A stretch of DNA of 28,883 nt from a virus, in IMG/VR virus record IMGVR_UViG_3300025849_003027, positions 1 to 28,883 of that record. One strand, given 5' to 3'. Shown here in pieces: positions 2,091-28,005 of this stretch. A model generated the notes under the pieces. That model made no database searches and was not told the origin of the DNA. It was given only the letters and a program-made list of their open reading frames with translations. A program made the position numbers and the translations under genes. Each line of letters starts with the position of its first letter. Positions within the stretch are counted from its first letter, which is position 1.

Positions 2091-5000
2091 ATGGCAAAAC
2101 AGAATATTGATATCGGTGTTGAAGGTAATGATGGTACAGGCGATAGTATTCGCGAAAGTTTTCGTAAAGTAAATGAAAACTTTAGTGAAATATATGCTGT
2201 ATTTGGACTAGGTGGACAAATAAGTCTTTTAGACTTAGGCGATACTCCTAATACATACGATGGTCAAACAAATAAAGTACCGGTAGTAAATGATACTGAA
2301 ACAGGAATAGTATTTCTTGATTTAGCAAGTGACAATGCTTTAGATCCTACAGACATCGATACAATAGGATTTGACTTTTCTGAAGAAGGTAAGCTGGTAT
2401 TAAAAATTAATGCTATCGATATATCAAAAGATATATTTCCTACACTAGGTGGTCCACTTAATGCAGCTACACAACCCATTGCAAATATAGCAGAAATAAA
2501 TCAATCAAGCGTTGATACATGGCGTGCATCACATGGTGAAGATATCGAAATAGGCGATCTTGTTATAAACAAAAGATATGCTGATGCAAACTATCAAGAA
2601 AAACAAAGAGCAGGTGCTGGTATTAGATTAGATGCAGAACCTGCAAATACAGATTTTTATACAAAAACAATTGAATCTTTTAACAGTTTTGGCAATCCAG
2701 TAATTACAGCACATGGACTAAATGATCAATATTTAGGCGCTCCGTTTATATTTAGAACAACTAATCCCTCAGATCTTCCTACAAATATTCTTGACGAGCA
2801 AACTGTATACATAAGAATTGTAGATGAAAACACACTTACTTTTCATACGTCTGAAGCAGATGCAATTAACAATTCATCTAGAATAATATTATCGGGCGGA
2901 ACCGGTACATTTACTATTGTTGATGCAGATTATGATCCTACACTTGAAGGAAACTGGTTATCAACTGTAGCGTTGCCACGTGAAAGTGTTACACGTAGAC
3001 AAGGTGACAGGATGGAAGGTACACTTTTCTTAAATGACCACCCAGGTGATTTAGCAGGATTAGGTACTGATATCGGTGGATCAGATGATTTACAGGCAGC
3101 AACAAAATTATATGTTGATAAAGGTACTCCTACTTCACAAGTTAACTTGTATGTAGCAACAGATGGCGATGATAGACAAACATATACACCGCCGGGAAAA
3201 GAAGGTAGATCACCTAGTTGGGCATATGCTACAGTAAATGCAGCAGCAAGAAAAGCTGAAGAAATTATACTATCGGCTCCGATTGAGCCTGGTCCGTACA
3301 TGCAAACAATTACATTTGGCGGCGGCCTTGAACCTTCATTAGTAACAACAGCAGGGTTTACTGCTCCGCCAGTAAGTAGACCAAATTTTAGTATTCTTAT
3401 ATCCGAAAACGTAGAATTTATACAACAAGAAGTTTTAGCATTTATAGAAACTACATATCCAACTTTTGAATATAATTTAGATACTTGTGCAAGAGATGTT
3501 GAGTTTATTGTTAACAGTGTTAGATTAGATATTTTATTAGGCGATAATGCAAACTATCTTTCAAGATGGGCAGGTATTAGATATTATTCTAATCCGAGTG
3601 CAAGGAAAGCAATTGGAGAACAGTTAGTAGAAACTGTTGCATCTATTGAGCATACAAAAAAGCTAATTAGAGATATTGTCAAAGGTGTTACAGTAGGAAG
3701 TAGTAATAGTGTTGCAGGTACATTATATCAAAATAGATATACTCAATTCACTAATCCTGCACTTATTCCAGATGAATTTACAGCAGAGAACGTTGCTAGT
3801 GCAACTGATGCTAAATTTGATATTGTATTAGATATTATAGATGGACCGACTCCAGGTCCATTAGATGCACCTACAGTAGTAGATGGTGCAACTACTTACA
3901 AAATTAATTTAAGTAACGGATCTTATGGTTATGTAGACCAAGGAAACCCCACTAATACTGATATTATTCCAGGAAAAGTTGTTGTAGGTAAAGAGTCAGG
4001 CGCTGTTGGTAGAATCATTGCTTACGATTATGACGCAAATCCTGATACAGTATTACCTGCAGATAACGATGTTTTAGAATTACAACTTTTAGAACCTGTT
4101 GAATTTATTCCAGGCGAAGAATTAGAGTACGGAAATTTTGTAAGAGAAACACAATGTAGTATTAGAATTGAATCAGGCATTTATGAAGAAGACTATCCAA
4201 TTCGTGTCCCTGCAAACGTAAGTATTAAAGGTGACGAATTTAGACGAGTAATAATACGTCCTAAGAAACGTATATCACAATCTAGATATACTAATACATT
4301 TTTCTATAGAGATAAACAATTTGATAATTTAACAATTGTCTCTAGTCAAATTACACAACTTTCTTCAATAATCGGCGGCGCACCGAATGGTACTAGAGCA
4401 GGCGCAGCCGGTACGTATACAGGAGTAACGCCTACGACAGTTACAACAATCGATCCTATTACTTCGGCTGTAACAGTAAGCGAAGGCACAAGCGGTGCTG
4501 GTGAAAGAGCAACATTTAATATTACTGTAAATGCAAATGGTAGTGTATTACTAAGTAGTGTTACAATTGATAATCCAGGTACAGGATACTTAGTTGGGGA
4601 CACTATTACTATTTCAGACGATGATATCGGTGCAACTGGTGCGCCAGATCTTACATTTACAGTAGGAGAAATATCAGGCGGCAAGCCTTATATAAATCCG
4701 CTAACAAATGAAATAGATGGTTATTTCGGTTATCATTACTTAAAATATCCTAATAGATTAAAAAATGTAGGTGAAGGATATCAAAATGCTGGCGGCGCAG
4801 TTATAGCATCGAGAATCTTAGAAGATAACAAAGAGTTTATTGCAGAACAAGTAGTTCAGTATATTGCTGCAACATATCCGTCTTTATCATTTGCACAAGG
4901 AAAATGTAATAGAGATGTAAGACTAATTGTAGAAGCAATGGCAAAAGATTTTGTACTCGGCGGAAATGAAAATATTTTAGAAGCACAAGGTGAATATTAT

Positions 5001-8000
5001 TACGGTGCATTGCCAAAAGATGGCTCACAAAATGGAGCTACTGAAGATGGTATAAATCAGATTTATACCATTCTACAAGGACTATTTGCAAATGCACAAC
5101 CTGCAACTATCTATGGTGATGTAAATTTAATAGAATACCCTCAAGCAGATTTATTTAATGGCGAAGCTGAAGCAACTGCACTAGCAATGTCATTAAATTT
5201 TATTAATACAATAAATTTTGCATTCAACGATGATTACAATCCACCGTTACCTAATGACGAAATGGATGTGTTCTTAATGAACGATGCTACAATTCTACGT
5301 AACATGACTGTACAAGGACATGGCGGATTTTTATGTACACTTGATCCATATGGACAAGTTCTAACTAAATCACCATACATTCAAACAGGTTCAAGTTTTA
5401 GTAGATCGCAAAATAAACAAGTATTTTCAGGAGGTATGTTTGTAGATGCATTTACTGGAAATACAGCAGTACAAGTTGTATCAACTGGTAGACCTGCAGA
5501 CGGAAGTCCAGTTCCAGATGTAACTGCAACTCCTGATCCATTTGTCTTGCAAGTAAAAAGTTTAGGTAGTCCTGAAGACCCACAAGGTCTTTATATACGT
5601 AGACCAGAAACGCCTTGCCCATTTTATGTTGATGGTAGAAGATTCCAAGTTAATGCAGTAATAAATTACGATCCTGACGAAGGTACTGCGGTACTACTAT
5701 TAGATAAAAATAGTAACCCTGATGCACTAGGTATAGGACAAGGCTTTACAGGTATAACAAGTAATTTACAAACTGGAGTAGACTTAGATTCTATTGCTCC
5801 GTTTGAGTTTAATGAAGCAAAATGTGCCAGAGACACTGGATTAATTTTAGATGCGGTTGGTTTAGATATTGCATTAGGATCAAACTATAAAGCAGTTACA
5901 GCAGGGCTAGCATATCAACGTGCAAATGCAGATGTTGTTACAGCAGAACAATTAGCACAAACAACCGCAGCAATTAATTTTGCTAAAAGTGAAGTACTTG
6001 CGTTAGGTGATGTTGCAGCAGATGGCACAGCAACAGCTAGAGCAACAGCAGCATTTGACGAAGTTGTAGATATTTTAAATAATGGTGTAGTAAGCACAGA
6101 TGCCGCAGCAGATCCTCTAACTTTTCCGACGCCGGCAACACAACCTACAACTAATGCAAACGATGCAAGTGTAATACTACAAGCAAACAAAGCATTCATT
6201 GTAGCTCAAGTAACAAGTTTTATTACTACAAATTATCCAAGTCTTACATATAATAGTACAAAATGTGAAAGAGATGTAGGATATATCGTTGATGCACTTT
6301 CATATGATGTTCTTTATGGAGGTAATTCAGGAACTTTAATAAATGCAAGATCTTACTTTGTTGGCACAGCTGGACAGTTAGGTAATACAGATGAAGAAAC
6401 TGCTACTGTAGCAGCATATACTGATTTGCAAACTATTGTAAGCGAAGTTGTACAAGGTACAAGAGCAGGACAGCCTGTAACAGCAAACCCTGCAACGGGC
6501 ACAGAAGCAACAATAGTAAGTGATCTAGTTGGAATTATTAAAGATGTAATTGAACTTGATACTTTAGAATTATTGCCAGCTGAAGTTACTCCAAACTTAA
6601 CTTCATTGTCAGTAGGTGCAGCACTAATATCAGCAAATGTAGATATTAGTAATAATAGAGCGTTGATTGTTGCTAGAACAGTGCAAAGTATTGATGCTCC
6701 AATTCCAATCACACTACAAACTGCTGGTAACAGAAGTATGCTCGGCAACGACTTTACACAAGTTAACGACTTAGGTTATGGACTAGTTGTTGTAAATGGT
6801 GCGCTATCAGAAATGGTTAGTATGTTTACATATTACTGCCATGCATCGTATTATGCTAAGAATGGTTCTGAGATTAGATCTCTTACAGGTTCAAGTTGTT
6901 ATGGTGATTATGGTCTAGTTGCAGAAGGTTCAGATCCAAATGAGATTCCAGACGGAATTTCAACACGTGATGATATGAATAATCCTGCAAAAACATTTAC
7001 AGCTGATATTATTTTAACTTGTTCTGATAATGTTACTACAGTTGCGGGCGAAACAATTACACAGGCGTCAACGGGTGCAACTGGTACTGTAACAATTTCA
7101 AGTAATACAAGAACAATTTATCTAACAGGTGTATCTAATATATTTGATACTACAAATCAGCTTACAGGTTCAACAAGTGGCGCTTTAGGTGCAAGTAGCG
7201 TACCTAGTGAAGTTGATACTTCAGGGTATGCAAATGATGAAGAACAATTATTTGGACACCTTTATGATTTTGAATATTTACCGAGTAACAGAGGTGAATT
7301 TGATATCTATCATCCGGTAAAAGATATTTTTGCTAGATACGAGATTGCAAACGTTGTCGACACAGGCACAACAGTAGGAGAAATATCTGGATTTGGTGAT
7401 AGTATATCTATAACCTACGCAGGTATTAGTTTAGGCACAGGTACAGGAGCAACATTTAAAGTTTCTAAAACAATTACAGATGGATATAGTGTAACTGGTG
7501 TATTATTAGGAGAAGATTACGAAGTAGGTGATACTATTACTATTAGTGGTGCGGACCTAGGCGGAGCAACTCCGGCAAATGATGTTGTAATTACAGCAAC
7601 CGAAGTTGATAGTAATGGCGGATTCAAAACTTTTACATTCACTGGCACTATTGCAATAACTGACGATACGCCTAGATATAATGGTAAAATTATTAAAGTT
7701 AACTTTGCAACAGGTGATGGTCAGTTTAGTCAAAACGGTATTTTAGAAACAGACGGCATACCACATGGCACTTATGTACAAGTTAGAAATAACCAAACAT
7801 TTATCTTTGAAGATATTGCTCGTCCAGATATTTTAACAATTCGTCCATCTACTGCGGTTATCTTTAGAGAAAATCCAGATACTGTATATAGAAGTATTTC
7901 ATTTTTAACTGCGGATGCATTAGGTAATGAACTACCAGAAGACACTACTTTAGCAGGATTTGATAGTACTTATGACTATGTGCGTTTAGTTGTTGATACA

Positions 8001-14397: not shown

Positions 14398-17166
14398 GTG
14401 AGTGAAAGAGAATATATTGTAAGTTTACATCGCGGAGTAGATGCAGAACAATTTAATCAAGATATGATAACATCAACAGGCGCAGGTTCGATACCAAATA
14501 GAACTGTTGATGTATCTAATGCTAGACCTGGTTCTTATAGGATTACACATTATGCATTAACAGATGCAGAAGCAACAGAATTAAAAAATGATTCAAGAGT
14601 AGTTGCAGTTGAAGTAAATCCGGAAGATAGAGACGATCTTATAATTACACATAAACGAATACAAGAAACAGTATTTGATAAAACAACTAGTGATTCTGGC
14701 GCATTTGTAAACTGGGGATTGCGTAGAATAAATGATGCTACAAATTTATATAGTGGTAATACAGCGCCCGGCGGCTATAATTTTACTATAGACGGAACAG
14801 GTGTCGATATAGTTATACAAGATAGTGGCATACAGTTTGCTCACGAAGAATGGAATGACTATAACGGAGAACAGAGATTACAACGTGTTAATTGGTATAC
14901 CGAATCTGGAATATTAGGCACCCAGCCTGGAGGATTTTATGCAGATTATGACGGACACGGAACACACGTTGCAGGAATAGTTGCAGGAAGAATATTTGGG
15001 TGGGCCAAAGGTGCAAATATTTATTCTATGAAAATACAGGGACTACAAGGACCATCTGATCCTGGATTTGGTATTCCAGCAATAGGTAGTTTTGATCTTA
15101 TTAAAAACTGGCATCTTAATAAACCTATTGAGCCTACTACTGGTTACAGACGACCAACAGTTGTAAATTTAAGTTGGGGATATAGTTCGTACTTTTCAGG
15201 TGTTACAGGCGGAGTATATAGAGGCACTCCTTGGTCCGGATCATCTAGGGATGCAACAAAAGGTATGATCGGAGCAGATGATGGTACAGGAATAGCTTAT
15301 CCTACAAGAGTTGCTGCTATAGATGTCGAAATACAAGAATTAATAGATGCAGGTGTTCATGTCTGTATAGCTGCTGGTAATACATTTCAAAAAATTGATG
15401 TTCCGGGAGGCTTAGATTATGATAATTATTTTACAAGTAACATTTATCCAGGTCAACTATATTATAACAGAGGCGGTTCTCCATATGATGACGAAGCATA
15501 TATTATAGGTAATGTAGATAGTGAAATACATTCAGGAGGACTAGAACAAAAAGCTGCTAGTTCAGAAACAGGTCCAGGAGTTATGTATTATGCACCTGGA
15601 ACAAACATAATGAGTTCAAGTAGTAATCAAAATCTTTATACTACAGGTGCATATCAATTTGGTAATTCTTTTTGGAAGCAAATGAATATAAGTGGTTCTA
15701 GTATGGCATCACCTCAAGTAGCAGGTATGCTTACTTTGTTCTTGCAATTGAATCCAGGTGCAACACCTGCACAAGCAAAAGATTTTATAGACAGAACAAT
15801 AAAAACAAATCAGCTATTTGATAGTGGACTGGACAATGATTATAATAACGAAAGATCATTGTTAGGTGGAAACAATAAGTTTATCTTTAATAAATTTAAT
15901 AGTTCAAAACAAATTGATGTTAGGTTTCCAGATACTGAAACATATAATATAATTGTAAATCCTGAAACAATATCCGAAGGCCAGTCAGTTACAATTATAC
16001 TTAATACTACAAATGTTGTAAATGGAACTAATGTGCCATTTACAATTAGTGGCGTTACAAGCGAAGATATCGGCGGACAAGATTTAACAGGTGTATTTGT
16101 TGTAAATAATAACACAGCATCAATTACATTGAACACAGTAGAGGATATACTTACAGAGGGAAATGAAACTCTTGTAATATCTTTAGACAATGGGAGTGCT
16201 ATCGCAGGGGTATTTATTTTAGATAGCTCTGTAGGAGCAAATGCTCCTACCTATCAGCTTTATCGATCAGCAGCAAGTGTAAATGAAAATGAAACATTTG
16301 ATATTACATTAATTACAAACTTTGTAGCCGCCGGCACTACAATACCTTATACTATTACAGGTATATCTAGCGACGACATCAATGGAGAAAGTTTAACAGG
16401 TGTGTTTACTATATCTGGAAACAGAGCTGATAAAACATTTACTATTACTGCTGATAGATCTACAGAGACAAATGAAACATTTACTATTGCATTAGATAAT
16501 GGTGCAAGTACAATAGATGTAATTATAAATGATACAAGTCAAACACCTACATTTTCGTTAAGTGCAGATACAAATCCAGTACCAGAAGGTACAAGTGTCA
16601 CTGTATCGTTATTAACTACAGAAAAAGATGACGGAGATATTGTAAATTATACAATAACCGGAGTATCATCTAATGATTTAAACTTTGCAAGTTTAAATGG
16701 ACAATTTACAATTAATTCAAATAGTGCATCTCAAAACTTTTTAATTACTCCAGATTTAACTACAGAGGGTTTAGAAACTATGACACTAAGCCTAGACAAT
16801 GGTAGCGATAGTATAGACATAGATATATCTGACACAAGTCCAAATAGACCTAGCGGAGTTAGTAGAAATATAAGCATCGCAAACGGTTATACTATAACTG
16901 GTACAGACTCTACTGGATTGTTAAATGGAGATAATTTAACTATCAATTTAGATTACGGTGATCAGCTAATACTTAATATTAATACTGCTGGTAATCCTTT
17001 GTTTATTAAAACTCAGCCTACTACAGGAACAGATAATCAAGTACTAGGAATACCAGGACAAGGAACAACAAGCGGAAATATAGTCTGGACACCTAGCTAC
17101 ATAGGAACATTTTATTATCAATCAAGTGTAGATGACTCCATGGGCGGACAGATCATAGTTAGCTAA
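14398..17166 (+). CDS. Subtilisin-family (S8) serine protease with adhesive C-terminal repeats
   Basis: The 922-residue protein starts at GTG 14398 with GGAG at 14384-14387. Residues 1-80 resemble an inhibitor_I9-type propeptide (EYIVSLHRGVDAEQF; SRVVAVEVNPEDR). The catalytic domain has the full S8 set: D142 in QDSGI, H187 in DGHGTHVAG, oxyanion N328 in CIAAGN and S435 in GSSMASPQVAG. Three Calx-beta-like repeats follow at about residues 516-615, 618-715 and 718-815, each with a TGVSSxDI-type strand and an E-T-x3-LDNG segment. A cupredoxin-like domain (about 819-922) ends the protein but lacks the usual metal ligands. There is no signal peptide. Placement among fibre genes suggests a virion-bound enzyme that cuts host surface protein or processes fibres. 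Proteolytic activity is strongly supported by the motifs; its target is unknown. Confidence 0.9.
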   Translation: MSEREYIVSLHRGVDAEQFNQDMITSTGAGSIPNRTVDVSNARPGSYRITHYALTDAEATELKNDSRVVAVEVNPEDRDDLIITHKRIQETVFDKTTSDSGAFVNWGLRRINDATNLYSGNTAPGGYNFTIDGTGVDIVIQDSGIQFAHEEWNDYNGEQRLQRVNWYTESGILGTQPGGFYADYDGHGTHVAGIVAGRIFGWAKGANIYSMKIQGLQGPSDPGFGIPAIGSFDLIKNWHLNKPIEPTTGYRRPTVVNLSWGYSSYFSGVTGGVYRGTPWSGSSRDATKGMIGADDGTGIAYPTRVAAIDVEIQELIDAGVHVCIAAGNTFQKIDVPGGLDYDNYFTSNIYPGQLYYNRGGSPYDDEAYIIGNVDSEIHSGGLEQKAASSETGPGVMYYAPGTNIMSSSSNQNLYTTGAYQFGNSFWKQMNISGSSMASPQVAGMLTLFLQLNPGATPAQAKDFIDRTIKTNQLFDSGLDNDYNNERSLLGGNNKFIFNKFNSSKQIDVRFPDTETYNIIVNPETISEGQSVTIILNTTNVVNGTNVPFTISGVTSEDIGGQDLTGVFVVNNNTASITLNTVEDILTEGNETLVISLDNGSAIAGVFILDSSVGANAPTYQLYRSAASVNENETFDITLITNFVAAGTTIPYTITGISSDDINGESLTGVFTISGNRADKTFTITADRSTETNETFTIALDNGASTIDVIINDTSQTPTFSLSADTNPVPEGTSVTVSLLTTEKDDGDIVNYTITGVSSNDLNFASLNGQFTINSNSASQNFLITPDLTTEGLETMTLSLDNGSDSIDIDISDTSPNRPSGVSRNISIANGYTITGTDSTGLLNGDNLTINLDYGDQLILNINTAGNPLFIKTQPTTGTDNQVLGIPGQGTTSGNIVWTPSYIGTFYYQSSVDDSMGGQIIVS

Positions 17167-17920: not shown

Positions 17921-20900
17921 ATGTCTTTTAATCCTAAAGACACAGGAATTGTAAATAACTCTGGAATATATCCTAGTAGTACAACTATCACATCAGATGA
18001 AAACAATATAAGAATTGTTTCAGATGGAGATCCATATCCGGCAAAAGCAGGGAATCCTTTAAATAATGACGGTGTTACGGAAAGATCTGGATGGGCATTA
18101 GGAACATACATACAAACTAAAACTATCGATCTTACATTTAATTATCGTGGCGGCAGGAATAGTGCTAATCCTCAAAATGTAGAACAGGGACCGATAGGTA
18201 TTGCAACTAATGGAGTATTAATATACACATCAAAGAATAATGATATTTTATTTAACAGTGCAACAAAGCCACCGGATGAATTACACTGGGACATCTCTGT
18301 ATTCAGTGATGTTTATAAAGGTGATTTAGCAAGTGGCTATATAGACGAAACTGGTGCATATAGATATGTCACTGGTGCGTTTGTTCCGGCAGTATATTCT
18401 AGAGAACGTAAAATATATCAAAAAAACGAATACTATGGTAGTAATAGTTACGGTAATGATTTTATGCGCCATCAAGACGGACATTCTAAAATTGTAGGTT
18501 ATGCGTTTGATGGTTATCCTATCTATGGACCTTTTGGATATGACGATCCACTTGAGCCGTTATCAAGACCAATAAGAACACCGTCTGCTTACCGTTTAAG
18601 GGATAACGATGATCATAGACCTAACGGATATAAAATTACAGATACTTATAGAATTAATAATCAAGAAAGAAATTTTACACTTGGTACATTTGTAGAAGAC
18701 TATGAATACGTTTCTACTCTAAGTACACTTGATGAACACAACGGTAGATATTGTATTACTCCGGAATATCCTAACGGAACTTACGCATATTTTTTAACAT
18801 TTAAAGATAACGGGTTAGTTGAACCAGCTTATCCTTATGTAATAGGTCCTCAATCTAAACAACAAAGAACAGCAGGAATAGGCACAGCGGATATTATATC
18901 GTTATGGTCTGTTCGTAGCGGTACAGTAGTTGCTAATTTAGCTGAACGAAGACCTGTTATATTTGCACTACCTGTAACTGATGACATTTATCCTAGTGTA
19001 GAATTACTATCAGGCAATCTTCCGTCAGGAACTAGAATCGAAGGCAATAATTTAGTTGGTACTCCGTTTGAAGTAGAACGAGATACATCATATCAATTTG
19101 TGTTGCGAGCAAAATATAACGGCATTATAGACGACAGAACATTTATTATAAATGTTGTAGGACCTGACGATCCAGTATGGATTACAAATGAAGGAAGACT
19201 ACAAGTAGGATCTAATAATACACTTTATATTTTAGATAATGCACTTGTAGATTTTCAGTTATCTGCAATAGATAGCGATCTACCAGCAGGAGATGAATTA
19301 GAATATTTTATTGCAAACGGTGACGGTGAACTGCCGCCAGGATTGTCATTATCTGAAGATGGCAAAATTACAGGTGTTGTTGAACCTTTATTAGCATTAG
19401 ATAGAATAGGAAATATAGGCGGATATGATAACGAAGCATATGATACTTTTATAACTGATTTTAGTATAAAAAGTGATTTTGGATTTAGTAGTTATTATTA
19501 CGATATACTAGGTTACGACAATGCAGGTCAACCAAAAATACCAAAAAAATTAAATAGATATTATTCATTTGCTGTTACTGTTACAGATGGTGATAGTTGG
19601 GTAAGACGAGAATTTACAATATATCTTGTAGGGGACGACTATCTTAGAGCAGATAATACGATCATGCAAGCAGCGGACGGTGTATTTACAGCAGATAATA
19701 CACACTTAAGAAATCCAGTATGGCTTACACCGAGCGATCTTGGATTTAAACGAGCAAATAACTATGTTACATTATATACAGATATAATTGAAAGCGATAC
19801 ACTTGCAGGTTTTGTATTTTACGAATTATTAGATTTCAATCCTGACCGCACTCCTAGTTTACTTCCTCCGGGGTTAACTTTAAATACAGGCAGTGGAGAA
19901 ATTGCAGGTCGAGTTCCGTATCAGCCGGCAATAACAAACTCTTACAAATTTACACTTAGAGCAACAAGATTTGAAGCAGATACTGGAACAGTTGAAGTAA
20001 TAGGTACATTTAATGAAGATACATTAATAGGAAGAAATAATTTAAAAGTAGCAAAATTACCACAAGGCTTAGAAGACGGAGTAGATGATTTAGCATCTTT
20101 AAGAAATCAAGTAATTAGAATTAATGATAAAGAATACGAAATTATAAAAGTTGACGGAAGTAATAGTGATTATGATTTAATAACTTTAGATAGATCAGTA
20201 ACTCCTAAGATTAGATTGATTACAAGCCAAAGTGCAGTAATTAATGATGAAATCTTTTTTGTAAATCGTCTATCTGAAACTGAGAAAACAAGATACTTAG
20301 GTAGATTTTTAAATTTTAATGCTGTTGAAAAATATGAAATAAAGGATATTTTACCTTACCTAGAATATAGAATTAAAATGAAGGATAGTAGTGCTATTCT
20401 AATAGAAGAAACATCTCTAAATTTAAAAGTAGGCCAGGAATTTATACTAGGCGATTATGCATATTACAATGGAGCAATCTATCAACTATCAAGTACGGAC
20501 TTAGATCTATTTGGAGATCCTACAAGAATACACACAGTTGTTTCACAACAAGACGATAATGGTGCTATTATAAATGATAGCGAAGGAAACCCAGTAGTTG
20601 ATTTTAATTCTTCAAAATGGAGTTTTATATCAAATACAAGTGCAGAACTTAGTGAAACTGTAAATAGAAATATATTTGAGCAAAGACTACAAATGGATTT
20701 TGCAATGGGTGCATTACAAAGATTGTCTCCGCAGTATCAAACAAACATTTACTTAACAGAAGTTTATCCTGCAGATCCAGCTCAGCTCTGGAGTTTAAGA
20801 ATGCCATCTACAGCAAATAGTAGAAATAGTCTACTAGTAAAAAAATATTTGAAACCAACAAATCTATCATTTGTTATATACAGAGATAACGAAGATAGAG

Positions 20901-22486
20901 TTGAAATTACAAGTAATATAGAAGCAACTCCAGGACTTTTAAGAAATATTGCCAGCGGCGCAGATATAAGTATATCTATTTTCAAACGTGATTCATTTAC
21001 AAAACTAATTAAAGTTCTTGAACAAGATGAAATTGTAGACTTACCATTCAGTGATAAAACATTTGATATAAGAATAATAGGCGAAATTGACAGTACAATA
21101 GAATTTCTAACTGAACGTGATTTAGGAAATATAAAAGCTAATTTTGTTAGTACGTTTAAATTAAATGCAACTACTACTGTTCCGGATACTAATTTAATAT
21201 ATAGAATCATTTCTGGAAAACTACCTAACGGAATGAGATTAAATCTAGACGGAGATATTATTGGCAAACCTAGACAATATATAAATGATGAAGGGTTAGG
21301 ATTAACTACATTTGATAATTATTCTACAGTATTTGATAGTTTAGAATCTAAGTCTTCAACATTTGATAGAGATTTTGTCTTTACAGTAGAAGCAAAAGAT
21401 AGATTTGGTTATAGTGCTGTAACTAAAGAATTTAAAATAACTGTAGTTGATGATGACAAAATTAGATATAGTAACATATATGTAAAACCTTTGTTAGAAC
21501 CAAGACAACGTCAAAGTTTTACTAGTTTTGTAAGTAATCCTAAAATTTTTCCAAATAATAAAATTTATAGACCAGACGATCCTGAATTTGGTATACAAAC
21601 TACAATAAAAATGCTTGTATATGCAGGTATTGAAACTCAAGATATTGCTAATTTTGTTGCTGCAACATCTCTTAATCATAAAAGGACTAATTTTAAAATT
21701 GGTGATTTTAAAATGGCAGAAGCAAAACAGCCGGGTACTAATGAAGTAATATATGAAGCAATTTATCTAGAAGTAATAGATCCGTCACAACCTATAAACG
21801 GAAAGGCAAGAAAATCATTTACAGCTTCTACTACAGAAACTATAACTACAGATAGTATACAGTACGATACAAAGGATGACATTACTAATACAGGCACAGG
21901 ATTTCAAGAACTGCCTGTATATGGTAGAAACACAGTTAAGTTTGTTATTCCGAATGGTGACGATCTTATTATATTAACTAGAGATTCTAATGTAACTGTT
22001 GATGTTGACAATAATGATTTTGAAATTGAATTACGAGACGGCTCAGATGTAGAAATAGAGTTAGGAATTACTGATAGCGAACCATATAGAATAAGACCTA
22101 AAACAAATACTATAAAAGCAGATAATACAGCAATAAGAGCAAGTGATTTTAGAGATCAGAAAAAGTATATTGTTAATATAGATAACATGAGAAGTCGAAT
22201 ACAAGAAACTGGACAGGATGAAAGAGAATATTTGCCGTTATGGATGCGTACTCCGCAGGCAAATACATTTCCACAGGAATTAGATTATGTTACTGCAATT
22301 CCTGTATGTTTCTGTAAACCAGGAGAAGGTACAAATATAATGCTAAATATTAGAAATGCAATAACTAACAATTTATTTGACCAAACAAAAATTAATTTTG
22401 AATTTGATAGATATATAATCGACCAAACAAATAACAACAGTAACGAACAATATATATTGTTCGCAAATTACCAATACAACGTGTAA
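17921..22486 (+). CDS. Large structural protein with YHYH-like domain and Ig-like repeats (1521 aa)
   Basis: Near residues 184-310 is a YHYH-family domain: HSKIVGYAFDGYPIYGPFG, LDEHNGRYCITPEYPNG, and YPYVIGP. The name-giving YHYH tetrad is replaced by YAYF. After this come several cadherin/He_PIG-type Ig-like repeats, recognised by LPSGTRIEGNNLVGTP, LPPGLSLSEDGKITG, LPPGLTLNTGSGEIAG and LPNGMRLNLDGDIIGKP, each followed by a beta strand ending near FxxTVTxxD. The rest is beta-rich and of unknown fold. There is no signal peptide. A strong AAGGAG at 17907-17912 serves ATG 17921. Repeats of this type often bind carbohydrates or other proteins, so an adhesin or fibre-shaft role is likely. What the YHYH domain does in phages is not known to me. 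Confidence 0.85.
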   Translation: MSFNPKDTGIVNNSGIYPSSTTITSDENNIRIVSDGDPYPAKAGNPLNNDGVTERSGWALGTYIQTKTIDLTFNYRGGRNSANPQNVEQGPIGIATNGVLIYTSKNNDILFNSATKPPDELHWDISVFSDVYKGDLASGYIDETGAYRYVTGAFVPAVYSRERKIYQKNEYYGSNSYGNDFMRHQDGHSKIVGYAFDGYPIYGPFGYDDPLEPLSRPIRTPSAYRLRDNDDHRPNGYKITDTYRINNQERNFTLGTFVEDYEYVSTLSTLDEHNGRYCITPEYPNGTYAYFLTFKDNGLVEPAYPYVIGPQSKQQRTAGIGTADIISLWSVRSGTVVANLAERRPVIFALPVTDDIYPSVELLSGNLPSGTRIEGNNLVGTPFEVERDTSYQFVLRAKYNGIIDDRTFIINVVGPDDPVWITNEGRLQVGSNNTLYILDNALVDFQLSAIDSDLPAGDELEYFIANGDGELPPGLSLSEDGKITGVVEPLLALDRIGNIGGYDNEAYDTFITDFSIKSDFGFSSYYYDILGYDNAGQPKIPKKLNRYYSFAVTVTDGDSWVRREFTIYLVGDDYLRADNTIMQAADGVFTADNTHLRNPVWLTPSDLGFKRANNYVTLYTDIIESDTLAGFVFYELLDFNPDRTPSLLPPGLTLNTGSGEIAGRVPYQPAITNSYKFTLRATRFEADTGTVEVIGTFNEDTLIGRNNLKVAKLPQGLEDGVDDLASLRNQVIRINDKEYEIIKVDGSNSDYDLITLDRSVTPKIRLITSQSAVINDEIFFVNRLSETEKTRYLGRFLNFNAVEKYEIKDILPYLEYRIKMKDSSAILIEETSLNLKVGQEFILGDYAYYNGAIYQLSSTDLDLFGDPTRIHTVVSQQDDNGAIINDSEGNPVVDFNSSKWSFISNTSAELSETVNRNIFEQRLQMDFAMGALQRLSPQYQTNIYLTEVYPADPAQLWSLRMPSTANSRNSLLVKKYLKPTNLSFVIYRDNEDRVEITSNIEATPGLLRNIASGADISISIFKRDSFTKLIKVLEQDEIVDLPFSDKTFDIRIIGEIDSTIEFLTERDLGNIKANFVSTFKLNATTTVPDTNLIYRIISGKLPNGMRLNLDGDIIGKPRQYINDEGLGLTTFDNYSTVFDSLESKSSTFDRDFVFTVEAKDRFGYSAVTKEFKITVVDDDKIRYSNIYVKPLLEPRQRQSFTSFVSNPKIFPNNKIYRPDDPEFGIQTTIKMLVYAGIETQDIANFVAATSLNHKRTNFKIGDFKMAEAKQPGTNEVIYEAIYLEVIDPSQPINGKARKSFTASTTETITTDSIQYDTKDDITNTGTGFQELPVYGRNTVKFVIPNGDDLIILTRDSNVTVDVDNNDFEIELRDGSDVEIELGITDSEPYRIRPKTNTIKADNTAIRASDFRDQKKYIVNIDNMRSRIQETGQDEREYLPLWMRTPQANTFPQELDYVTAIPVCFCKPGEGTNIMLNIRNAITNNLFDQTKINFEFDRYIIDQTNNNSNEQYILFANYQYNV
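22444..22463. other. Perfect 20-bp palindrome near end of the 1521-aa gene
   Basis: The sequence CGAACAATAT is followed directly by its exact reverse complement. It lies within the coding sequence, 23 bases before the stop. Its fully paired, AT-rich centre could form a cruciform or serve as a binding site for a dimeric protein. There is no U-tract after it, so it is a poor intrinsic terminator. Confidence 0.6.
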
Positions 22487-23382: not shown

Positions 23383-23940
23383 ATGCTTATGAAAACAGAC
23401 TCTCTTGGAATCCCACGATTTACAAATAAAGATCTTATCGATATGATCTATACAGGTCATGCGGATAAGGTGCATGTAGTATTGTGCGATGCAAATGACG
23501 ATGTAGACAAGTTTAACTCCGCTATGGAAGAACAAGGTCTAGACAAACTACAAAAGTATATTCCATTAGATGTAGATCAAAAGACTTTTGACGGTGTATG
23601 TCAAGGTGAATGGTTTATGCCTGACGAATATAAAACACTTAATGTATTAAACTGGCTACAAGCAAATTTGATGGAAAAACTACAAGACCCTGGCGATAAT
23701 AATATTTTAACAACAAAAGAATGGGCTAGGGTTTCTGAAGAGTATGAACAATACAGACTGCGTGGTATGATTGACTTACTACGCTATATGGTCTATCTTG
23801 TAGATTTTATGCGTGAGAACGACATTGTGTGGGGTGTAGGTAGAGGCTCAAGTGTAGCAAGTTATGTGTTATACTTGATCGGCGTACATAGAATTAATTC
23901 AATCCAGTATGGCCTGGATTGGAGAGAGTTCCTGAGATAA
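23383..23940 (+). CDS. Orphan protein resembling the palm region of DNA polymerase III alpha
   Basis: The last 37 of 185 residues (WGVGRGSSVASYVLYLIGVH, then INSIQYGLDWREFLR) match the C-family polymerase (DnaE/PolC) segment GPGRGSAAGSLVAYxLGIT...YxLLFERFL. In true polymerases this is followed by the catalytic PDIDIDF, but here the protein stops right after REFLR. The N-terminal 148 residues (LGIPRFTNKDLIDMIYTG, DKVHVVLCD, DVDQKTFDGVCQ) also recall the region before the palm. The protein therefore cannot polymerise DNA by itself. Possible roles are nucleotide or primer binding, or interference with host replication. I recall similar orphans in marine T4-like phages. The start may be ATG 23383 or 23389; neither has a clear ribosome site. 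The resemblance is seen; function is unknown. Confidence 0.75.
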   Translation: MLMKTDSLGIPRFTNKDLIDMIYTGHADKVHVVLCDANDDVDKFNSAMEEQGLDKLQKYIPLDVDQKTFDGVCQGEWFMPDEYKTLNVLNWLQANLMEKLQDPGDNNILTTKEWARVSEEYEQYRLRGMIDLLRYMVYLVDFMRENDIVWGVGRGSSVASYVLYLIGVHRINSIQYGLDWREFLR

Positions 23941-25866: not shown

Positions 25867-26394
25867 ATGCCTGTACATGCAATGATTGATTTAGAAACCC
25901 TACATACTACTCCTCGAACAGCAGTGCTAACAGTAGGTGGTGTAAAGTTTAATCCTTTAGACAACAGCGAACCGCACAGTGAATTTTACTACAAACTAGA
26001 CCTAGACTCACAGGACAGAGATGTTAGTGACGATACTATTGCCTGGTGGAGCAAGCAGGATCCTAAAGTACAAGAAGAAGCATTTAGTACTGAAGGACGT
26101 GAACACATGGATGTGTTCTTAGATAGTTTGCCCAAATGGATGGTAGGTGTTGATGTGCTGTGGGGACACGGATATGGATTTGATATTACTATCATTGAAG
26201 ATATGTTACGTCAACGTGGTAAGCCTATTCCGTGGCAATTTTGGCAAGTGCGTGACTCACGTACATTATTCCTAATGGCAAAAGTAGATCCACGCAAAGC
26301 AATGCAAAGTGACTTGCACAATGCTCTAGCAGACGCTTACTTTCAAGCAAAGGGTGTACAAATGGTATACAAAGAGTTAGGAGTAAAGCGTTGA
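25867..26394 (+). CDS. DexA-like 3'-5' exonuclease (DnaQ fold)
   Basis: The DEDDh motifs of the RNase-H-like exonuclease fold are present: D8-x-E10 in MIDLETLHTTP, D106 in GHGYGFDITII, and H151-x4-D156 in LHNALADAYF. The DDTIAWWSKQDPKVQEEA segment is characteristic of the Rv2179c/DexA branch, which includes T4 DexA, a 3'-5' exonuclease on single-stranded DNA. The length of 175 residues is somewhat short compared with T4 DexA (about 227). AAGGA precedes the ATG after a 59-base gap. Its stop codon overlaps the TTG start of the next small gene. The likely role is degradation of host nucleic acid or DNA repair; whether it prefers DNA or RNA cannot be told from the sequence. Confidence 0.85.
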   Translation: MPVHAMIDLETLHTTPRTAVLTVGGVKFNPLDNSEPHSEFYYKLDLDSQDRDVSDDTIAWWSKQDPKVQEEAFSTEGREHMDVFLDSLPKWMVGVDVLWGHGYGFDITIIEDMLRQRGKPIPWQFWQVRDSRTLFLMAKVDPRKAMQSDLHNALADAYFQAKGVQMVYKELGVKR

Positions 26395-26555
26395 TACGGT
26401 GGTATGATTATCCCACAGCGTTTTTAACAGCAGATCTTATGATGACTGCTGCATTTAGTATTCCTTGGGTTGGCTTTATTGTTGCATACGCTATGTATGA
26501 ATATGGTTGGGAAGCATACTGTAACTGGAGGTTCAAGCAAGAATATGAAAGATAA
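26391..26555 (+). CDS. Small membrane protein (54 aa), TTG start
   Basis: TTG 26391 overlaps the TGA of the exonuclease gene and is preceded by TAGGAG at spacing of about six bases. The 54-residue product (IRWYDYPTAFLTADLMMTAA, then PWVGFIVAYAMYEYGWEAYC) has two hydrophobic stretches separated by a short turn and a basic end (NWRFKQEYER). I recall close relatives in marine T4-like phages with the same IRWYDYP opening, which supports this unusual start. Two membrane helices are likely. Its last 11 bases overlap the start of the lipoprotein gene, so both may act at the envelope. Function unknown. Confidence 0.7.
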   Translation: MIRWYDYPTAFLTADLMMTAAFSIPWVGFIVAYAMYEYGWEAYCNWRFKQEYER

Positions 26556-27705
26556 ACTAAAAAGATCGTACGTTATTTCACCACTATTGTTAGCAGCCTG
26601 CGGCGGTAGTGATAACAATGACGATAACAATAATACGTTATCATATAATTCGTCATCTGAGCCAGTAGTTGTTATTCTTGATCGTTTTCAAACATCTACA
26701 TCGCATGGTCCTCAAGTACTAAAAAACTTTTATGGCGAATTCCAAAGCGATAGTACAGAAGTTACTGTAATTGCTGAGGACCTTGATGAAAATAAAGATC
26801 CGATGCCACTAATTAGAGTGTATAACGATTTTGCCCCGGATGTCATTAATGCTAGTTGGGGTAGAGATATTGATACAACATACCCATTTATTGGCGAGTA
26901 TGACGATGCTCCTGAACACTCTTCTAACGGCAATTATTTAGAAGCTAATGAATTTTTATGGAAAAATGGAGTAACTGTTACTGCTAGCGCAGGCAATGAC
27001 GGCACCGAAGGAGCAACAAATGGAACCTTTGCAAACAGTATATTTCCTATTATGGTTGGTGCCTATAGTCAATACGATGATAAAATTTATGCCTGGAGTG
27101 ATCAAGGCAGTGCAGTTGTCCATTATTATGAATCAGGCGATGGCTGGGGAATAGAAGGAACTAGTTTTGCTGCACCTAGAGTTGCTGCACATGTTGCTCA
27201 TATTAAAAGCAACGATCCGAATATATCAGAAAGCTCAGTAAGAACTATACTAGAGAAAAACAGTTTGTATGATTTTGATGCAGGCAAGTATGTGCAGAAG
27301 TTAGATGAAATTGAAGACTTTAATCCTAGTATCACAACTAGAGTTAAAGTCGAAGCAGCATTTGAAATATTCGAAGGCAGAAATCCTAGTCAATCTGAAC
27401 TAGACAACTGGATATTTCTTTTAGACAATGGCATTGAAACACTAGGCTCTATGGCACAGCAATTTGCAATGGATGGTATTCAAACTGATGATGTTCCGCC
27501 TATTGAACGTATGCAAGCATTTTATCATTTTTGGTTAGATAGAGAATCACAAGACACAGAAATAGTAGATATGTATAACGATCTAGTACGAACACAAGAT
27601 TGGAACATTACATTTGATAACTTTATTGAAATAGAAAATGTTGACACTGAGTATAGTTTTGTGAATAATAATCATAATCAGCTTGTTAGCGAAGTATATG
27701 TATAG
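26545..27705 (+). CDS. Subtilisin-like protease, predicted lipoprotein, with DUF4214-like C-terminus
   Basis: ATG 26545 gives a bacterial lipoprotein signal: basic KDKLKRS, hydrophobic YVISPLLL, and a lipobox LAAC with C19, followed by a low-complexity linker (GGSDNNDDNNN). ATG 26470 would add 25 residues and bury this signal. GGAGG lies at 26527-26531. The mature part has an S8-like set: D46 in VVVILDRF, H54 in STSHGPQVL, oxyanion N151 in ASAGNDG, S207 in GTSFAAPRVAAH. The Asp and His lie only eight residues apart, unlike ordinary subtilisins, so this is a compact branch. A DUF4214-like segment follows at about residues 265-350 (EIFEGRNPSQSELDNWIFLL). It would sit on the outer or inner membrane facing the periplasm or outside. 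Superinfection exclusion or envelope remodelling is possible, but inferred. It shares no clear similarity with the 922-aa protease beyond the S8 motifs. Confidence 0.82.
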   Translation: MKDKLKRSYVISPLLLAACGGSDNNDDNNNTLSYNSSSEPVVVILDRFQTSTSHGPQVLKNFYGEFQSDSTEVTVIAEDLDENKDPMPLIRVYNDFAPDVINASWGRDIDTTYPFIGEYDDAPEHSSNGNYLEANEFLWKNGVTVTASAGNDGTEGATNGTFANSIFPIMVGAYSQYDDKIYAWSDQGSAVVHYYESGDGWGIEGTSFAAPRVAAHVAHIKSNDPNISESSVRTILEKNSLYDFDAGKYVQKLDEIEDFNPSITTRVKVEAAFEIFEGRNPSQSELDNWIFLLDNGIETLGSMAQQFAMDGIQTDDVPPIERMQAFYHFWLDRESQDTEIVDMYNDLVRTQDWNITFDNFIEIENVDTEYSFVNNNHNQLVSEVYV

Positions 27706-27714
27706 GATATGTCA

Positions 27715-28005
27715 ATGAAAAATAGTCCAATAAACACACTACAGCAACTTATGATTATTACTGCGGAAGAGTGCGGTGAGCTTACACAAAGATGTAGCAA
27801 AATAATGCGCAAATACGAATCTTTAGACTTGATTGAAGAAGATCAACGTGTTAAACTAGTAGAAGAGATTGGCGATGTACATTGCATGATCGAACTTATG
27901 GTAGGCCATGGCATTACAGATTGGCGTGAATTACATGATCGATCAGATTATAAAAAAGAGAAACTTAAAAAATGGAGTACATTAATTAATGTCAATGAAT
28001 CATAG
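27715..28005 (+). CDS. MazG-like pyrophosphohydrolase (second copy)
   Basis: I choose ATG 27715 because AGGA at 27704-27707 has seven-base spacing to it, against one base for the ATG at 27709. The 96-residue helical protein carries ITAEECGELTQRCSKIMRKY, with the EExxE metal site, and a second acidic site in VEEIGDVHCMIELM. It differs greatly from the MazG-like protein at 24727, so the two are not a recent duplication and may have different substrates. Its last 17 bases overlap the next gene. Nucleotide clean-up or alarmone breakdown is inferred from family only. Confidence 0.82.
   Translation: MKNSPINTLQQLMIITAEECGELTQRCSKIMRKYESLDLIEEDQRVKLVEEIGDVHCMIELMVGHGITDWRELHDRSDYKKEKLKKWSTLINVNES

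Follow-up and report, generated by a model that had tools for sequence, protein, structure and literature searches.

A predicted phage lipoprotein with a subtilisin-like protease domain and its possible role at the surface of infected cells

Described S8 proteases and phage lipoproteins

Phage S8 proteases, lipidated subtilisins and phage lipoproteins are each already known. NalP and SphB1 are lipidated subtilases that cut surface proteins (PMC9977779, PMC9289746). In cyanophages, an S8 protease (phrog_9158/3677) is encoded at the side of the baseplate genes. The lipoprotein Llp of phage T5 reportedly acts by receptor binding and is not known to be a protease. Llp is synthesised by the infected cell and serves superinfection exclusion. 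Here, we describe a gene from an IMG/VR virus record (IMGVR_UViG_3300025849_003027; the whole stretch of DNA that was analysed, positions 1 to 28,883, is called the window), which encodes a predicted lipoprotein with an S8 domain and a C-terminal domain related to DUF4214, and we compare it with its viral and cellular relatives.

The window protein has the same fold as the S8 subtilases BPN' and Carlsberg, as well as their Asp/His/Asn/Ser set and GTS motif, and differs from them in its compact Asp-His spacing, its lipobox, its DUF4214-related tail and the absence of a propeptide. In its predicted state it can be likened to NalP and SphB1, which are lipid-anchored S8 proteases of the cell surface; unlike these, it is encoded by a phage and shows no beta-barrel translocator, S8 being the single Pfam domain in its 386 aa. 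T5 Llp and the window protein are both phage lipoproteins, the latter by prediction, whereas only the window protein is a predicted protease; the two are compared here by description. Compact S8 lipoproteins of Comamonadaceae, other Burkholderiales and an unplaced betaproteobacterium are alike in spacing and lipobox, but show no DUF4214 in Pfam and fall outside the viral clade. Viral sister proteins (L045, L048, L067 and L128) have the same S8 domain and DUF4214-related tail and differ in having no signal. A conserved viral family that combines lipobox, S8 and DUF4214-related domain did not turn up in INPHARED, and no phage S8 lipoprotein was present among the literature matches listed.

The cyanophage protease is likewise a phage S8 protein, but it is long, lies among virion genes and has no lipobox. 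The window lipoprotein gave no phrog_9158 match at E 0.01; its best PHROG match is phrog_3677 'protease' (E 1e-8), confined to the S8 part. The homologue of the cyanophage protease in the window is encoded at 14398-17166. This second S8 protease of 922 aa lacks a lipobox, has virion-type genes around it, precedes a T4 gp9/10-like protein, and is related to cyanophage proteins encoded next to genes for the baseplate wedge, tail pin or tail fibre. Profile comparison between the two S8 proteins of the window gave a match that is weak (E 0.019, probability 2.4) and restricted to the S8 part. In the other six records the lipoprotein is the one S8 match of each; these records may be fragments.

The features of the lipoprotein gene and its upstream neighbour, in window positions, are:

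26545..27705, plus strand: predicted S8 lipoprotein gene, 386 aa (open reading frame; PF00082; five distinct viral relatives at 44-70% identity)
26545..26601, plus strand: predicted signal peptide and lipobox, residues 1-19, LLAAC with Cys19 (PROSITE-style rule; Cys19 invariant)
26602..26661, plus strand: low-complexity linker, residues 20-39, rich in Asn, Asp and Ser (direct reading)
26662..27309, plus strand: compact S8 catalytic domain, residues 40-255 (Pfam, model, superposition, dN/dS)
26680..26682, plus strand: codon of Asp46, predicted catalytic Asp (invariant in 33/33)
26704..26706, plus strand: codon of His54, predicted catalytic His (invariant in 33/33)
26995..26997, plus strand: codon of Asn151, predicted oxyanion Asn, in SAGND (invariant in 33/33)
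27163..27165, plus strand: codon of Ser207, predicted catalytic Ser, in GTSFAAP (invariant in 33/33)
27310..27702, plus strand: C-terminal helical DUF4214-related domain, residues 256-386 (PF13946 below cut-off; sister L045 above it; model)
26391..26555, plus strand: small membrane-protein ORF, overlapping the protease start by 11 bases (ORF list)

Protease domain, anchor and C-terminal domain

The reading frame from 26545 to 27705, with its start and stop codons, agrees with the initial annotation. The window protein matches PF00082 with 55.7 bits (E 6.1e-15), above the curated cut-off of 21.8 bits, over residues 95-240 and profile positions 108-273 of 288; because the match starts at residue 95, it covers the Asn and Ser motifs and misses the Asp/His motif. 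Subtilisin Carlsberg is a phmmer match among PDB sequences (E 2e-5, residues 135-244), with SAGND of the window protein aligned to its AAAGNSG stretch and GTSFAAP to its GTSMASP stretch. The Asp/His half of the S8 domain is thus unseen by both the Pfam and the phmmer match. The sole NCBIfam match is the type VII secretion mycosin model TIGR03921, with 25.7 bits against a cut-off of 278.75, and no NCBIfam autotransporter matched at E 0.01.

The catalytic set Asp46, His54, Asn151 and Ser207, first read from the sequence with these exact residue numbers, is invariant in all six distinct viral proteins (the window's and five others). It is also invariant in the 33 rows of a wider alignment (A8); since both the choice and the trimming of the rows relied on a visible Asp motif, the invariance of the Asp column is partly due to selection. 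Asp and His are 8 residues apart in the window protein, and at most 8 in 13 of the 33 compared proteins; in BPN' the spacing is 32 residues.

An AlphaFold model of residues 36-386, built from the 33-row alignment, reached a pLDDT of 85.9 and a pTM of 0.89, and replaced an earlier, poor fold from a 4-row alignment (pLDDT 43). VIA-align superposed it on the subtilisin structure 1suc with Z 23.1 and an rmsd of 2.2 A over 197 residues at 24% identity, the top rows being tied within 1 Z, so that the subtilisin core expected from the initial annotation is present in the predicted structure. The superposition starts at subtilisin residue 24 and, given the spacing of 8 residues, the model is without most of the BPN' segment between Asp and His. 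Subtilisins also rank first in Foldseek (E 3e-8), with a TM by model length of 0.39-0.49 among the best 50 rows, a modest value because the matches fall largely within its S8 part. BFVD matches at E 0.001 or below are mostly S8 proteases of phages and giant viruses, one of them from Agrobacterium phage Atu_ph07. By superposition on subtilisin, Asp46, His54 and Ser207 would lie close together in space. The protease fold is well supported by sequence and predicted structure.

The window protein starts MKDKLKRSYVISPLLLAAC, a typical lipoprotein signal, and its lipobox LLAAC ends in Cys19, which is invariant in the six distinct viral proteins. The lipobox rule, a PROSITE-style one based on n-region charge, a hydrophobic stretch and the lipobox Cys, holds for all six, in keeping with the clean LAAC lipobox that had been noted initially. 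Under a stricter version, which additionally allows no Pro, Asn, Gln or His before the Cys, three of the six pass, and the window protein, L003 and L004 fail. As a background, the usual rule was applied to the 269 ORFs of at least 60 aa in the window and the related 172-kb contig G006; it selected four, two of which are the protease itself. The signal and linker are the fastest-changing part of the protein, with dN/dS of 0.34-0.78 (9 of 15 pairs computable) compared to 0.10-0.43 for the S8 part (12 of 15, with three pairs saturated) and 0.12-0.36 for the C-terminal part (14 of 15), all of which are rough values since synonymous sites are near saturation. Together with the lipobox found in six of six proteins, this indicates that the letters of the signal drift fast and its pattern stays. 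The anchor signal is well supported by sequence.

In E. coli, the residue after the lipobox Cys governs sorting. It is G, Y, Q, N, G and G in the six proteins, and an outer-membrane location is suggested by this residue never being D. The linker of residues 20-39, whose low complexity is evident by direct reading as annotated, is too short to accommodate an I9 propeptide of typical size. The protein would then have to fold in the periplasm without the usual chaperone segment, which counts against a function in the envelope.

The C-terminal part of the model is all helix. DUF4214 has been described as a likely surface-anchoring domain (PMC12780176). The initial annotation had described this C-terminus as DUF4214-like, which stands insofar as the C-terminal profile (A4) matches sister protein L045 at E 2.8e-16 when 57 ORFs are searched, and L045 itself scores 32.6 bits against PF13946. 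The window protein, however, reaches 13.6 bits, below the cut-off of 23.2, and no DUF4214 match was found in the sisters L048 and L067 at E 0.1. With the window score under and the L045 score over the cut-off, the domain is called DUF4214-related and not DUF4214. A division of the C-terminus into two DUF4214 repeats was not supported (hhalign E 0.44), some control pieces scoring better, down to E 0.022.

Viral family, cellular relatives and gene neighbourhood

Scans of viral contigs identified six IMG/VR contigs that carry a relative across most of the protein length; the first scan recovered three of them and later scans the same six. L006 and L008 represent one phage, with 4 mismatches over 16,062 bases and an identical protease, and were counted once, which leaves five distinct contigs and, with the window, six distinct proteins, the others being 44-70% identical to that of the window. 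The window and the six related records are all virus records, and those scanned have phage replication or tail-type genes, which bears out their description as phage. In INPHARED, tblastn with the window protein found no match at E 1e-3, and the same holds for two sister proteins; with the L008 protein, hits up to E 1 came from 31 records, and the best of them had an E of 0.01. A plasmid search with the L008 protein gave none at E 0.01.

The DNA pattern GTS[FY][AS]APxVA occurs in 57 viral stretches, and a profile search of their ORFs revealed a sister subfamily with the S8 and C-terminal domains and no signal, whose proteins begin at the first strand. L045, L048 and L067 are full-length members and L050, L071 and L083 incomplete ones; L071, L083, L130, L131 and L132 were dropped as cut. 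A further scan added L128, and L129, a repeat of the L128 protein, was dropped. In L045, the sister protease gene (4260-5429, minus strand) and a phage lysozyme gene (3263-3778, minus strand) have a lysis-cassette-like arrangement. Among the 57 stretches, 45 ORFs are 5'-complete; one, L039 (the L003 protein), has a lipobox, and four (L063, L068, L075, L086) have a hydrophobic N-terminus without one. An export-type N-terminus is rare among the viral S8 proteins of the sampled contigs, and the lone protein with a lipobox belongs to the lipoprotein family described here. A tree built from 33 S8 domains unites the six lipoproteins of viruses with four viral proteins that have no signal in one clade (95/86), within which the lipoproteins group together (91/91), and bacterial lipoproteins are found elsewhere; the tree has several long branches, and its root and deep order are unsure.

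The first scan of genome contigs gave no match, and a scan with the joint alignment found 31 loci, matching mainly in the S8 part. The tree and A8 include 23 of these; L095, L099, L101, L104, L107, L119, L120 and L124 were left out, either as no clear Asp motif was visible at first or as they were judged too distant or cut. A lipobox by rule is present in 12 of 32 ORFs examined, many from Comamonadaceae and other Burkholderiales, with L107 doubtful for want of a hydrophobic stretch. Several cellular relatives have an Asp-His spacing of 6-10 residues, and six (L102, L109, L110, L113, L114, L116) are compact S8 lipoproteins with a spacing of 6-9, from Comamonadaceae, other Burkholderiales and an unplaced betaproteobacterium. 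The lipobox in these six was assigned by rule in four and by eye in L113 and L116, which fail the rule. Pfam found S8 in the six and DUF4214 in none, and neither of the two scanned against NCBIfam (L110, L113) has a family over cut-off. The six have a common C-terminal end. Nothing suggests that the phage anchor was acquired from these bacterial lipoproteins. In the search for a cellular source, 385 genomes were covered from the class to which Thalassobium sp. R2A62 belongs, placed in the Alphaproteobacteria by name; four matched at E 1e-6, at S8 positions only.

The place of the protease gene among its neighbours varies between loci. It lies immediately 5' of a clamp-loader gene in L003, L004 and L008; in L007, one small ORF intervenes, and in L005 one ORF separates it from a downstream ribonucleotide reductase gene. 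The upstream neighbour is a GAPDH gene in L008 (PF02800, E 3.6e-59), which is a host-like metabolic gene, a dihydroorotate-dehydrogenase-like gene in L007, and an unmatched ORF of 294 aa in L004. In L005, a MazG-like ORF, recognized by eye, is preceded by a tailspike-like gene with a pectate-lyase fold, one ORF upstream of the protease, and virion genes are therefore not always distant. The order in the window is 3'-5' exoribonuclease-like gene (PF16473), small membrane ORF, protease and MazG-like ORF, the last named by eye and without a Pfam match. No receptor-linked partner gene was seen among the neighbours, and a quick look revealed no T4-type late promoter words close upstream of the protease gene.

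The initial annotation drew attention to the small membrane-protein gene overlapping the protease start. The overlap of 11 bases is present in the window, but the association is not conserved: the RWYDYP motif of the small ORF occurs only in the window and L003 among the six loci searched, by an exact search that would miss a diverged copy, and in L003 two ORFs separate it from the protease. Absent as an exact motif from four loci, the small ORF does not form a unit with the protease, contrary to the gene pair that had been envisaged.

Genes of the related contigs indicate kinship with jumbo or giant phages. The L003 clamp loader is nearest to Pseudomonas phage PA5oct and kin (54.9%), followed by Atu_ph07 (48.1%), and for the DNA polymerase encoded on the L008 contig, Sinorhizobium phage Phosso comes first (49.1%), again followed by Atu_ph07 (45.3%). 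The tmRNA of the L008 contig is starred by ARAGORN, which marks a permuted tmRNA, as in Alphaproteobacteria. The host is probably alphaproteobacterial, judging from the relatives of the window rather than from the window itself. The marine origin assumed in the initial annotation fits the cyanophage-like genes.

Other genes of the window include a UV-endonuclease UvdE gene at 87-1022 (PF03851, E 1.3e-37); in the tail region, at 17921-22486, a protein of 1521 aa that combines a YHYH domain with putative Ig domains; and at 23383-23940 an ORF of 185 aa that matches phrog_11127, a family of short DNA polymerases, and contains the stretch GRGSSVASY, which resembles a lone piece of the DNA polymerase III alpha subunit (the subunit named by eye). 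On G006, a tmRNA gene at L030:7484-7821 (G006 27484-27821), starred by ARAGORN, has the tag ANDNRAPEMALAA, and at about 123-165 kb (L035-L037) many consecutive genes share one strand; judged by eye from the N-termini, several of them resemble radical-SAM or other Cys-rich enzymes.

Proposed role in the infected cell

On the basis of sequence and model, the window protein is very probably an exported S8 lipoprotein protease. The fold, catalytic set, anchor signal, constraint and gene neighbourhood were computed, and timing, export, lipidation, outer-membrane sorting, activity and target are what we infer. The protease would be made during infection, exported by Sec, lipidated at Cys19 and probably sorted to the outer membrane, where the anchored subtilisin would cut proteins of the cell envelope, and the DUF4214-related C-terminus may keep it attached to the target or to the surface. 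That it acts as an envelope protease during infection, whatever its target, appears somewhat probable. Its purpose would most likely be to modify the surface of a cell that is already infected, the foremost targets being receptors or incoming parts of rival phages. Superinfection exclusion fits the lipid anchor and is the leading purpose proposed, which as a specific purpose stays tentative. The reading as a whole, to which we give a probability of roughly one in four, is that relatives of jumbo phages infecting marine Alphaproteobacteria would use a lipid-anchored subtilisin to shave the surface of the infected cell, as proteolytic superinfection exclusion, by means of a viral S8-DUF4214 module that also has a sister form without export, once located near an endolysin gene. 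The existence of this sister form, with the same S8 and C-terminal domains and no signal, implies that the shared core function need not be envelope-based.

The location of that one sister gene speaks for the main alternative, an envelope protease of the lysis stage that severs the connection of the outer membrane to the cell wall, or cleaves proteins of the outer membrane, in spanin-like work, with the signal-less sister arriving via the holin hole and the lipoprotein via Sec. The L045 gene is one ORF away from the phage lysozyme gene (PF00959, E 8.5e-31; phrog_7 endolysin) and adjoins a small ORF matching phrog_462 'lipoprotein'. In L048 and L067, however, the sister gene sits between a 5'-3' exonuclease and a dUTPase gene, and the scan of neighbours in the lipoprotein branch showed genes of replication, nucleotide and other metabolism, one tailspike-like gene and no lysis gene; we regard a lysis function as unlikely. 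The replication and nucleotide genes in the neighbourhood, as well as the conserved catalytic set, would also agree with counter-defence, that is, an early destruction of envelope-located host defence or stress proteins, or of host toxins or proteases. Nothing specific speaks against it; PADLOC gave weak matches, which reach at most 20.4 bits for the window protein and are restricted to the S8 part. We consider this explanation improbable.

The GAPDH gene directly upstream in L008 could be taken to favour a metabolic role, in which envelope or surrounding protein is degraded in general to supply amino acids in a nutrient-poor sea; a membrane tether and an extra domain suggest a definite target instead, and such a role seems more doubtful still. 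That the protein is cytoplasmic or inactive and its lipobox due to chance, for which the signal-less sisters and the three of six proteins failing the stricter rule could be cited, is very improbable in view of the invariant catalytic residues and of the usual rule holding in six of six proteins as opposed to four of 269 ORFs, two of these being the proteases.

If the proposed proteolytic superinfection exclusion is true, an enzyme tethered to the envelope could strip many receptors. The family offers a natural pair of proteins with and without an export signal for probing the role of an envelope protease in infection.
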